DNA from: an uncultured Ignavibacteria bacterium
Lineage (GTDB): Bacteria; Bacteroidota; Ignavibacteria; Kapaibacteriales; UBA2268
Direction of reading: 5' to 3'
Assembly (NCBI GenBank): GCA_903862655.1
Contig: CAIOZA010000058.1
Span: 1-55,985 of the forward strand
Length of the DNA: 55,985 nucleotides
Below, in pieces: positions 24,901-30,497 of this stretch; position 1 is the first letter of the stretch, and every line of letters starts with the position of its first letter. The notes below the pieces were generated by a model that had not been told where the DNA came from, did not search any database, and worked only from the letters and a program-made list of their open reading frames with translations. Position numbers and translations under genes: made by a program.

Positions 24901-25674
24901 AACTGCTCTTCAATATTATAATTATTATTATTCATTAGCGGATTACTATCTATCTAAGCTTACTTTTAACGAATTTCACATTGTTCCAAATTTATGGTAA
25001 TGAACTTAACAAAAATTTAAAAATAATATAAAATAATGTTTTCCACATCTTCCTCAAATGGCTTAGAAACTAACTTCTAAGTTTTCAACATGCTGCTGTT
25101 GTTCGGAAATTGTGTCCGTTAGCTTATTCTAAATTAGTTAAATATTTCTAATTTCCAAACAAATAAATAATACTCCCAAGCCAATAACTGGTTAAAATAT
25201 ATGTTACTTGCTTGATTGTATGATTGGATCTTGCTTTTGAAAAAGTAAAGCTGAACAAAAATAATTGTTCTAATCCAATAGAATTGATTTGTTTATGCAT
25301 CATTTGTAAATTTATTTTTTTTCACGTAATTTTAGTAGAATTTTAGATGAAGCCTTGAAATAATGAGATTATTATAAGATGTTGATTCAATAATTAAGCG
25401 TAAACATGAGGATCTCCTCGATAGTAAGTTTCATGTCATTCTGAGGGAGCGAAGCGATCGTGAGAGCTATAGGCTTGCGAAGCGAATCCAATATTAATGC
25501 GGACTGGATTCGCTTCGCAAGGCCTCCGGCACCTCACTACGTTCGGAATGACCTCTAAAATTTGATTTGTCACACAGGCTCAATCACTGGAATGACATTT
25601 TAGGAAACATAAACTTTTTGAGAAATCCTGGTGTGTATCGCATCAGTTCACATATTAAAAGAATTTAATAAAAT
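24901..25674. other. 774-bp gap without a gene
   Basis: The gap lies between divergent genes and is AT-rich. Apart from the palindromic repeat at 25434-25554, I see no open frame with coding character, no RNA gene and no riboswitch. Promoters for the leftward SIMPL gene and the rightward FAH gene are expected at the edges, but I cannot place them. Confidence 0.6.
25434..25554. repeat. Nested palindromic repeat with outer TGTCATTC / GAATGAC arms
   Basis: An inner perfect 17-bp inverted repeat pairs 25474-25490 (CTTGCGAAGCGAATCCA) with 25505-25521. Outer arms TGTCATTCTGAGGGAGCGAAG and ACTACGTTCGGAATGAC enclose it. The outer arms resemble those of the repeat between coaD and coaE. Confidence 0.82.
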
Positions 25675-28566: not shown

Positions 28567-29052
28567 ATGAGCAATAAAATAGCAATTTATCCCGGGACAT
28601 TCGATCCGATAACAAACGGACACATCGACGTAATAGAACGTGCAGCTTCTCTGTTCGATAAGGTTATCGTCGTCGTAGCCGTCAACTCAAAAAAAACACA
28701 GTTGTTTTCGGATGAGGAGCGGAAAGATATGGCGAAAACAGCCCTCAGCCATTTACCTAATGTTGAAGTTGATATCTACAATGGTCTTCTGTTGGATTAT
28801 GCCGTTCAGAAAAAAGCGTCTGCTCTTGTTCGCGGTATCAGAGCTGTCTCCGATTTTGAGTATGAATTTCAGCTTGCGTTGATGAACCGGAAGATTGTAC
28901 CAGACATCAAGACATTATTCCTTATGCCCCACGAAAAATATACCTATCTCAATTCCTCGATAATCAGGGAGCTTGCAAGCTTCAAGCAGGATGTGACGGA
29001 GTTTGTGCCTAAGAATGTGTCAGAAATGCTGAAGACGAAGTTCGGGGAGTGA
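28567..29052 (+). CDS. coaD: Phosphopantetheine adenylyltransferase
   Basis: The 161-residue protein has the nucleotidyltransferase motif GTFDPITNGH (TNGH at 16-19) and the C-terminal NSSIIREL, with RGIRAVSDFEYEFQ and LMNRKIVPD between them, all diagnostic of CoaD. It catalyses the fourth step of coenzyme A synthesis (4'-phosphopantetheine to dephospho-CoA). GAGG precedes the ATG. The gene for the next and last step, coaE, lies about 0.66 kb away on the opposite strand. Confidence 0.96.
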   Translation: MSNKIAIYPGTFDPITNGHIDVIERAASLFDKVIVVVAVNSKKTQLFSDEERKDMAKTALSHLPNVEVDIYNGLLLDYAVQKKASALVRGIRAVSDFEYEFQLALMNRKIVPDIKTLFLMPHEKYTYLNSSIIRELASFKQDVTEFVPKNVSEMLKTKFGE

Positions 29053-29087
29053 GGTTTTATTGTCATTTCAGAAGGAGTGTAGTGAAT

Positions 29088-29169
29088 TGTCATTTCGAAC
29101 GAAGTGAGAAATCTCAAATGAATTTAGGAAATAAAAACAGAGATCCCTCTCTGCGCTCGGGATGACAAT
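29088..29169. repeat. Palindromic repeat, unit next to coaD
   Basis: A left arm at 29086-29114 (ATTGTCATTTCGAACG then AAGTGAGAAATCT) faces a right arm at 29141-29169 across a 26-nt loop. About 22 of 29 positions pair. A more degenerate left arm precedes it at about 29060. Confidence 0.82.
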
Positions 29170-29243
29170 ACATGAATACATAGATCCACCGTTAAACACG
29201 GGATGACAGACTAACATGTCATTTCGAACGAAGTGAGAAATCT
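29141..29243. repeat. 103-bp direct repeat, copy A, upstream of the GIY-YIG gene
   Basis: This copy matches 29551-29653 with about eight differences. It consists of a right arm of one palindrome (29141-29169), a spacer containing ATACATGAATACATAGATCC, and a left arm of the next palindrome (29216-29243). Confidence 0.88.
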
Positions 29244-29259
29244 ATAAATCAAGTGAATA

Positions 29260-29547
29260 ATGGATAAAACTTATTATATTTACATATTAACCAACAAATC
29301 AAAAACTCTATATGTTGGAGTTACTAATAATTTGGAAAGAAGAGTTTTTGAGCATAAAAACAAACTATTTGAGGGTTTTACTCAAATATATAATATTTCT
29401 AAATTAGTATATTTTGAGCAAACAAATGATATTAGTTCTGCCATTGCGAGAGAAAAGCAAATAAAGAGCTGGCGAAGAGAGAAGAAGATAAATTTAATTG
29501 AACTTGTTAATCCAAACTGGAATGATTTGAGCTTGGAATGGGTATAG
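29260..29547 (+). CDS. Small GIY-YIG nuclease-domain protein inside a palindromic repeat
   Basis: The 95-residue protein is essentially a bare GIY-YIG domain. It has YYIYILTNKSKTLYVG at the start (the GIY and YIG strands), NNLERRVFEHK with the arginine, and a C-terminal AIAREKQIKSWRREKK with a candidate catalytic glutamate. Stand-alone proteins of this type are frequent in Bacteroidota, with no established cellular role. The ATG lies 16 nt after the left arm of a palindromic repeat and the stop lies 3 nt before its right arm, so the gene fills the loop. Codon use is AT-rich compared with coaD. Confidence 0.9.
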   Translation: MDKTYYIYILTNKSKTLYVGVTNNLERRVFEHKNKLFEGFTQIYNISKLVYFEQTNDISSAIAREKQIKSWRREKKINLIELVNPNWNDLSLEWV

Positions 29548-29550
29548 TTG

Positions 29551-29653
29551 AGATCCCTCTCTACGCTCGGGATGACAATACATGAATACATAGATCCACA
29601 TTTAAACTCGGGATGACAGACTTATATGTCATTTCGAACGTAGTTAGAAATCT
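29551..29653. repeat. 103-bp direct repeat, copy B, downstream of the GIY-YIG gene
   Basis: It starts 3 nt after the nuclease stop and has the same layout as copy A: right arm 29551-29579, spacer, left arm about 29626-29653. A further right arm at 29678-29706 closes a second short palindrome just before coaE. Confidence 0.88.
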
Positions 29654-29677
29654 CAAATAAATAAAGACATAAAACAC

Positions 29678-29706
29678 AGATCCCTCTCTACGCTCGGGAT
29701 GACAAT
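29678..29706. repeat. Terminal right arm of the palindromic repeat array
   Basis: The sequence is nearly identical to the right arms at 29141 and 29551. It pairs with the left arm ending at 29653 across a 24-nt loop and ends 5 nt before the coaE stop. Confidence 0.8.
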
Positions 29707-29711
29707 ACAAA

Positions 29712-30314
29712 TCACATTGCCTTCATAATTTCAACTATCATCAATACGGATCTTTTGAGCTGATCCGGAGTTCCGTTGTTTTCGATATTGAAATCAGCCC
29801 ACTGAGATTTCTTTTCTGGTGGTATTTGTCGGTTTAGCCTGTTCTGAAGCTGAATTGCAGTTATACCGCGGGATTCAGCCCTCTTCTTTACATTATCGAT
29901 AGAAGATGAAACATTCAGAATGTAGTCGAAGCCATCGTCCAGTTCAGCCTCATAGATCAGTGCACTTTCTACGAAAACGAGTTTCTCTCCATTATTTTCG
30001 TATTCTTCAACCAGATTCATCATTTTTTCAATAACCGGGGGGTGAACTATTTTATCCAGCTGATCGAGAAGCTTCTCGGATTCCGGTTTATCCGAAAATA
30101 CTATCGAAGCCAGATAAGAATTGTTCAGCTTTCCATCCTTATACGTATCTGAACCGAATGCCGAAATCAGCTGTTCTCGCACTTTTTCATCGCTATTCAT
30201 AATTTCTTTAGCCAAATCGTCGGTATAAATCACTATAAATCCGGCATCAGCGATTATTTGGGCCGCAGTTGTCTTCCCTGAACCAAACCCACCTGTAATG
30301 CCGATACAAAGCAT
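29712..30314 (-). CDS. coaE: Dephospho-CoA kinase
   Basis: The protein has the P-loop GGFGSGKTT near its N-terminus (IGITGGFGSGKT), followed by IYTDDLAKEIM and VFVESALIYEAELD, typical of CoaE. It phosphorylates dephospho-CoA to coenzyme A. I chose the ATG at 30314, preceded by GGTGAC, because it puts the P-loop at the normal distance; an ATG at 30356 would add a 14-residue acidic extension. It converges with coaD, with a repeat array between them. Confidence 0.92.
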   Translation of the reverse strand: MLCIGITGGFGSGKTTAAQIIADAGFIVIYTDDLAKEIMNSDEKVREQLISAFGSDTYKDGKLNNSYLASIVFSDKPESEKLLDQLDKIVHPPVIEKMMNLVEEYENNGEKLVFVESALIYEAELDDGFDYILNVSSSIDNVKKRAESRGITAIQLQNRLNRQIPPEKKSQWADFNIENNGTPDQLKRSVLMIVEIMKAM

Positions 30315-30425
30315 GTTGTCACCGTTTTCTGATTCAATTTCTTCTTCTTTTTCCATAAATATTATATTTAATTTGGATTTATATTGAAATGTTCTTAATT
30401 TTGTAATCCTGTTTAATACAAAATA

Positions 30426-30497
30426 GGCCCCATAGTGTAACGGTTAGCACACGACCCTTTCAAGGTCGGGGAACGAGTTCAAATCTCGTTGGGGTCA
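30426..30497 (+). tRNA. tRNA-Glu (anticodon UUC)
   Basis: The 72-nt gene folds into a full cloverleaf. The acceptor stem GGCCCCA pairs with TGGGGTC (one G-U), the D arm contains AGTGTAACGGTTAGCAC, the anticodon stem-loop CGACCCTTTCAAGGTCG has TTC in the centre, and the T arm contains GAGTTCAAATCTC. The 3' CCA is not encoded. Confidence 0.95.

Follow-up and report, generated by a model that had tools for sequence, protein, structure and literature searches.

The window analysed here (the whole stretch of 55,985 nt from an uncultured Ignavibacteria bacterium) contained, in the gap between coaD and coaE, six TGTC-tagged arms forming three head-to-head units, together with two degenerate arms. 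The middle unit carried a GIY-YIG nuclease gene at the position where the gene-free units have a short spacer. The features were as follows.

25528–25552, minus strand: extra lone arm, elsewhere in the window (arm pattern, 2 mismatches)
28567–29052, plus strand: coaD, context (TIGR01510, E 1.4e-61)
29088–29114, plus strand: left arm of the gene-free unit on the coaD side (arm pattern, sequence)
29140–29243, plus strand: direct repeat copy 1, right arm–spacer–left arm (repeat family D3)
29141–29167, minus strand: right arm of the gene-free unit on the coaD side (arm pattern, sequence)
29181–29208, minus strand: degenerate arm in the inter-unit spacer (repeat family D1, read off the sequence)
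29217–29243, plus strand: left arm of the gene-bearing unit, TGTC tag outside (repeat search, arm pattern)
29260–29547, plus strand: stand-alone GIY-YIG nuclease gene, 95 aa (PF01541, E 1.4e-14)
29550–29653, plus strand: direct repeat copy 2, 92% identical (repeat family D3)
29551–29577, minus strand: right arm of the gene-bearing unit, tag outside (repeat search, arm pattern)
29591–29618, minus strand: degenerate arm in the inter-unit spacer (repeat family D1, read off the sequence)
29627–29653, plus strand: left arm of the gene-free unit on the coaE side (arm pattern, 1 mismatch)
29678–29704, minus strand: right arm of the gene-free unit on the coaE side (arm pattern, sequence)
29712–30356, minus strand: coaE, context (TIGR00152, E 1.4e-35)

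An earlier note on this DNA had placed the gene in the loop of a palindrome, with gene-free versions on both sides and a bracketing direct repeat. The gene indeed starts 16 nt past the end of the left arm (29243), and 3 nt separate its TAG codon from the right arm, which starts at 29551; the gene-free versions were present on both sides, and the bracketing repeat was recovered as two 104-nt copies. Of the palindrome itself, the head-to-head arms stood and the single long palindrome did not: the two arms beside the gene, one inverted, were identical at 20/27 positions and differed in paired stem positions (ATTTC..GAAAT vs ATCCC..GGGAT). Since the changes are matched within the arm that carries them, what is conserved is the individual stem rather than one long palindrome. 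The direct repeat, being a block of right arm, spacer and left arm, probably reflects tandem amplification of the array and not a target duplication.

All six clustered arms started with TGTC, their stems began with AT and comprised 5 bp followed by a GA/GA mismatch, and their tails began with CT (CTA, CTC). The arm pattern (up to three mismatches) matched seven times in the window, namely the six clustered arms and 25528–25552, where 0.01 matches were expected; the genome as a whole contained 114 matches, compared with 13 for the reversed control pattern. Among 32 listed of these 114 matches, standard pairs at stem positions 4 and 5 numbered 28 and 29, respectively, vs 19.9 and 19.8 expected if the two sides were independent (the search pattern itself restricts position 4 to Y/R), and position 6 showed no excess (9 vs 7.7). 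A count of compensatory changes (28 double changes and 4 others among 376 stem pairs) leaned towards structure, a direction in which it is biased because the arms were picked by their stems. When the eight window arms were folded as DNA, some of them as incomplete pieces, none clearly beat its shuffles (z −1.33 to 0.61). At gathering thresholds, Rfam gave no match to the array and only a tRNA at 30426, and a literature search with the arm DNA returned no paper about repeats, as judged by title.

The closest published description was that of the CGTC REPs, defined in a survey by Di Nocera, De Gregorio and Rocco (2013; PMC3733652) as repeats that, in the portion of the text available to us, “apparently lack a dedicated transposase”, with no association with transposase genes marked in Table 1. 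According to the same portion, these widespread multicopy repeats carry a CGTC, TGTC or CCTC tag, a stem starting with AT and a loop of 4–5 nt, and occur mostly as head-to-head dimers; they are equated with Neisseria dRS3 and two palindrome families of Rickettsia, and A. lipoferum, S. meliloti, N. aromaticivorans and the Neisseriae are named. The window arms resemble them in the TGTC tag, the high copy number and the three head-to-head units. Arms similar to CGTC REPs also lay beside homologues of the nuclease in Azospirillum lipoferum, Sinorhizobium meliloti, Novosphingobium aromaticivorans and Neisseria gonorrhoeae. The window arms differ in the outer stem of 5 bp and the CT tail, compared with the 8–9 bp and tail near CCA given in that part of the survey, and in the GIY-YIG gene between the arms, as the same text records no associated enzyme (PMC3733652). 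The arms of many homologues had a canonical 8-bp stem, a 4-nt loop and a tail ending in CCA; given its CT tails, the window repeat is therefore called CGTC-like here and placed outside the four published families.

The protein encoded by the gene matched PF01541 over residues 5–78 of its 95 aa; this was the only Pfam match at E 0.001, and no HUH Y1 tyrosine transposase was found among such matches. Ten residues (Y8, Y18, R28, H32, E53, E65, K69, R73, K76 and N84) were invariant in 32 aligned sequences including that of the window, which argues for a working nuclease; the invariant Tyr, Arg and Glu among them are presumably the catalytic residues of the GIY-YIG active site. The PF01541 match together with the conserved Tyr, Arg and Glu places the protein in the GIY-YIG superfamily. 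The protein consists of a bare catalytic domain, with a separate DNA-binding region absent, and its AlphaFold2 model was confident (pLDDT 92.7). By sequence, the nearest PDB structures were the UPF0213 proteins 1zg2 and 1ywl, which are of similar size; 1zg2 was also the best fold match, followed mainly by Slx1 structures. A match to TIGR01453 fell below the cut-off of that model. The window protein itself had one match only in its own genome. Genes of this kind carry no annotation beyond ‘GIY-YIG nuclease family protein’ or ‘excinuclease ABC subunit C’. A role in defence was considered and is unsupported, the best PADLOC match (E 0.0079) covering 30 residues.

Matches of the nuclease were found in 38 of 100 genomes (its own and 99 relatives), with a patchy distribution. 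The layout was assessed with an inverted-repeat score, which ignores the tag and measures the repeat across the gene (threshold ≥ 32), using same-length random windows of the same loci as controls. The 63 matches yielded 62 entries for scoring, the overlapping piece of an interrupted copy (G044:C214:8046) being left out, and four of the 62 were without flanks. The threshold was reached by 30/58 homologues in the relatives, near and far, compared with 34/7309 random windows. The window gene is among the 28 below it, with a score of 30, a value reached by 0/60 random windows of its own locus. When 84,980 species were scanned, each represented by one genome, at least 579 relatives emerged, and the best 80 were analysed as named loci; these were mostly metagenome-assembled and bore titles of Nitrospirae, Omnitrophota, Patescibacteria-type groups, Chloroflexi, Alpha-, Beta-, Gamma- and Deltaproteobacteria, Planctomycetes, Armatimonadota, Elusimicrobia, Bacteroidetes, a Halobacteria archaeon and others. 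Among the 79 of these 80 that could be scored (one was too short), 54 reached the threshold and 25 did not, compared with 23/6138 random windows.

The flanks were also assessed with a tagged-hairpin detector, which was designed after flanks had been viewed; loci with < 150 nt on a side were left out. Tagged hairpins stood on both flanks in 21/33 close relatives (≥ 49% identity), with the tags outward in 17/33 (random windows: 0.3% and 0/922); the detector missed the right arm of the window gene. The corresponding values were 56/76 and 42/76 for the named loci retained out of 80 (random: ca. 1% and 0.3% of 2495 windows) and 10/13 and 5/13 for loci from a plasmid collection (random: 5.8% and 0.6%), for which 14 of 36 records were taken and 13 tested, a second N. 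gonorrhoeae record being left out. The plasmid-collection loci included those of Azospirillum lipoferum, Novosphingobium, Sinorhizobium and N. gonorrhoeae; those of Rhizobium tumorigenes and Photobacterium were without arms on both sides in this test. Among far relatives, only 2/23 had tagged hairpins on both flanks in any orientation and 0/23 had them outward. Paired arms pointed outward far more often than inward (17 to 1 in close homologues, 42 to 6 in named loci). More than half of the testable homologues of the window clade have inverted repeats or paired arms around the gene, an outcome in favour of the earlier note, which would have been refuted if most homologues lay outside such repeats. 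As a side observation, the homologue of N. gonorrhoeae (L045) lies inside a dRS3-like array whose nearest arms face inward, against the usual layout.

Outside this clade, the pattern was rare: far GIY-YIG relatives, GIY-YIG genes of UvrC size, coaE and Y1 transposases were without it, with rare exceptions. In REP-rich genomes, far GIY-YIG relatives reached a score of 32 at 0/7 loci (six genomes), and the other GIY-YIG matches in the window's own genome (two in UvrC-size frames, one under the cut-off) had arms on both sides in 0/3 cases. Among 30 coaE loci of the family, one was bracketed by arms (L196 of G013, a REP-rich genome with no match of the nuclease); only in the window did the flank retrieved for coaE (up to 1500 nt) include coaD (1/30; 0/29 of the others). 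Chance similarity, mobilisation by RAYTs and accumulation of terminators were considered and are disfavoured. Under the last of these, REPs would be terminators or insulators that gather beside small, late-acquired genes. The array did contain one terminator-like hairpin where 0.3 were expected, but the scarcity of paired arms in random windows of the same loci and the single bracketed coaE locus make this explanation highly improbable.

It is likewise improbable, if slightly less so, that a RAYT-like Y1 transposase elsewhere in the genome moves the repeats and that the GIY-YIG gene is incidental. Although 14 Y1_Tnp matches occur in the own genome, GTCAT-type repeats stood on both sides at 0/10 of the Y1 loci examined, and the 2013 survey, in the portion available, found no tyrosine transposase flanked by CGTC repeats (PMC3733652). 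One of the Y1 loci (C97:9740) had a single GTCAT-type repeat close by; its own inverted repeat, CCACGAGCTTTAGCTCGTGG, is a different one, so two REP systems may coexist in this genome.

The repeats were also clearly commoner in genomes that carry the gene, a comparison that the earlier note had proposed and whose outcome is again in its favour. Across the 100 genomes, with host phylogeny ignored, the median REP excess was 42 in those with a close homologue (best E < 1e-20; n = 23) and 3 in those without (n = 77; Mann–Whitney U test, p 1.1e-5), and within the window's family it was 80 vs 6 (p 0.0045, again ignoring host phylogeny). In an independent order, that of Dechloromonas denitrificans (G103, locus L166; 200 genomes), at least 10 REPs were present in 20/32 genomes with a close gene (best E ≤ 2.1e-20; G103 as the centre genome is among the 32) vs 14/168 without, G178 with broken pieces of a close homologue being counted as lacking it (p 7.5e-11, host phylogeny ignored). 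REP-rich genomes without a close gene (12/77 at an excess of ≥ 20 and 14/168 at ≥ 10 REPs) would need past loss, broken copies or missing assembly. Conversely, 7/23 genomes had a close gene yet a REP excess of < 20. Some genomes with the gene and few pattern matches have arms of another sequence: an inverted repeat was seen at 8 of 13 loci that were read (11 from genomes with < 5 pattern matches, G174 and the broken copy of G178).

Behaviour resembling that of a mobile element was seen at other loci. In Azospirillum lipoferum, the gene stands between two REP dimers at the junction of sufB and sufC; A. ramasamyi, A. oryzae and B510 have neither gene nor REP dimers there, and their matched flanks are 94.7%–96.2% identical. 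The gap between fnrL and a response regulator on Sphingobium megaplasmids occurs in three states: the gene lies between arms in TomMM7A and TYG46 (and as a frameshifted copy in TomTYG73), a lone gene-free palindrome that reads as a fusion of one arm's outer part with the other arm is found in TYG64 and, in similar form, TYG74, and TYG72 has neither gene nor palindrome. The gene-free palindrome could be an empty target or a deletion product. In Shinella, HZN7 and WSC3-e carry the gene with REPs at a site that is a short gap in PSBB067 and S. zoogloeoides and a longer gene-free gap in H4-D48. At these sites in the three genera, the ends are too diverged to read precise insertion ends or a target-site duplication. 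In another relative (G018), two copies of the gene on different contigs (274/281 nt identical) share a 560-bp block, in which the gene is flanked on either side by ca. 145 bp of REP array; beyond this block there is no notable similarity. The window unit contains no transposase. Separately, the genome G003 had seven homologue matches (L057, L058, L063–L065, L088), including a tandem pair with a distance of 1.2 kb and several located at the ends of contigs, which suggests recent amplification.

These loci bear on the view that the nuclease is a host maintenance enzyme, which might, for example, resolve REP hairpins or cruciforms in the manner of Slx1 and owe its place beside REPs to regulation. 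In favour, the fold matches ranking after UPF0213 are mainly to structures of Slx1, a structure-specific nuclease. In contrast, the presence of the gene in only some of the genomes, the empty sites, the frameshifted Sphingobium copy and the interrupted copies among the matches in relatives look like those of a mobile, dispensable gene, and we regard the maintenance role as quite unlikely.

Arm sequence followed protein sequence between different genomes. The arm distance between each locus and that with the nearest protein was 0.331 vs 0.753 after permutation among relatives (n = 29) and 0.41 vs 0.536 among named and plasmid loci (n = 78); 0/2000 permutations reached either value. Since close neighbours may share ancestry, this tracking is no proof of recognition. 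In one genome (G035), two paralogues differ in arm type. A quick tree of 77 proteins showed clustering of the REP class (14 changes vs a shuffled mean of 27.4; 0/200 shuffles as low), with 39/74 inner branches unresolved and with a loose rule that labels three clade II rows A. One side of the tree was labelled as CGTC-type in 43/53 rows; the remaining 24 rows comprised far relatives without arms and another palindrome family. Six far relatives from beta-type genomes, which we take to be UPF0213-like, fell in this other major clade (SH-aLRT 98) and had no arms, a difference from the window clade despite the structural likeness.

The tracking also bears on whether the gene is a hitchhiker, that is, whether REP arrays are recombination hot spots carrying a selfish or useful nuclease gene that does not act on them. 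Duplication of arrays around the window gene and the G018 copies would fit, as would the number of REP-rich genomes without the gene. However, the arm type tracks the protein type even between two paralogues of one genome, the excess of outward over inward arms is large, the far GIY-YIG relatives examined in REP-rich genomes stayed below a score of 32, and none of the three other GIY-YIG matches of the own genome had arms on both sides. We therefore judge hitchhiking unlikely, if less so than a maintenance role.

In RAYT, REPtron and REPIN systems (GTAG REPs), a repeat-specific enzyme copies the repeats. As far as the consulted part of the literature describes them, they share with the present locus one small gene beside or between REPs and many gene-free inverted dimers. 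The flanking of the gene by inverted cognate REPs is likewise that of a REPtron, so that the unit would work like one without being a member: the enzyme is a GIY-YIG protein rather than an HUH Y1 transposase, and the tag differs. With GIY-YIG homing endonucleases of the I-TevI type (PMC3943268, of which a part was available), the locus shares the catalytic domain and the proposed cut-and-repair copying, here of the gene's flanks; the differences are that the window protein has no room for a DNA-binding tail, that the gene lies outside an intron or intein as far as seen, and that the putative target is a multicopy repeat. A term search of the main text of RepRanger 2025 (PMC12306157) found the words nuclease, transposase and RAYT absent. 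Judged by title and start of abstract among the matches listed, no publication linked GIY-YIG proteins to REPs; preprints and most subscription journals lay outside this scope, and earlier reports may exist.

Taken together, the layout, the co-occurrence and the element-like loci support the suggestion of the earlier note that the nuclease spreads or maintains the palindromes in a manner similar to RAYTs. We consider it fairly probable that CGTC-type REPs are mobilised by this nuclease as their cognate enzyme, probably through cuts at REP sites followed by copying via homologous repair. Weighing against this are the 114 pattern matches in a genome with a single gene copy, the REP-rich genomes without a close gene, the loci below the score threshold, the bracketed coaE gene of G013, the unreadable insertion ends at the empty sites and the lack of the additional DNA-binding region of known GIY-YIG homing endonucleases. 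The window would then hold three units of a CGTC-type REP element, two of them gene-free. The remaining one, with its GIY-YIG gene between head-to-head arms and tags outside, would represent the autonomous form, and the gene-free head-to-head dimers the non-autonomous form. The nuclease may recognise its cognate arms through tag and stem and cut or nick there; host recombination would repair the cut from another REP copy, and this homing-like conversion could copy either a short spacer or a gene-bearing spacer into a new REP. Occasionally, REP-bearing DNA might be joined to a new place. GIY-YIG enzymes hydrolyse DNA, and to our knowledge they have no strand-joining or strand-transfer chemistry, which favours REP-site cutting with copying by host recombination. 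Such cutting and copying would explain the presence of a gene in place of the dimer spacer, as well as the growth of arrays by direct repetition.

More tentatively, the unit may belong to a new class of mobile element that is free of a transposase, in which a compact GIY-YIG nuclease spreads hairpin repeats and its own gene by REP-site cutting and host copying, and which would account for the CGTC REP superfamily in many phyla. The nuclease is a strong candidate for the missing enzyme that spreads this common class of bacterial repeats. The 2013 survey left the mobiliser of CGTC REPs open, a question that can be put to a direct test once a specific enzyme and its cognate sites are available. 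If true, the proposal would provide a role for genes known only by the two annotations given above, and short palindromes would be seen to spread without a transposase.

Other palindrome families may be spread in a like manner by sister GIY-YIG clades and perhaps by DUF559 nucleases. A sister group of far GIY-YIG genes is found among palindromes of another family, with the core TCGACAAGCTCA / TGAGCTTGTCGA, recorded at L036, L037, L063, L066, L067, L068, L069, L070, L071, L073 and L076, and by eye at L233. This motif occurred on both sides of 4/24 genes vs 2/616 random windows, and on either side of 11/24 vs 51/616. On a plasmid of Sphingomonas parapaucimobilis (L249:900–1340), a gene annotated as DUF559, which we take to be nuclease-like, occupies the same sufB–sufC junction and is bracketed by inverted CCCCTCCCCT..AGGGGAGGGG palindromes; this is perhaps another nuclease fold doing likewise with another repeat. 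Finally, two GIY-YIG genes (L077 in G006:C2 and L081 in G050:C94) were seen by eye beside apparent partial copies of tRNA-Ser, with a CCCGATTGCTATCGGGA-type hairpin in place of the anticodon region; L077 has two such copies in tandem.
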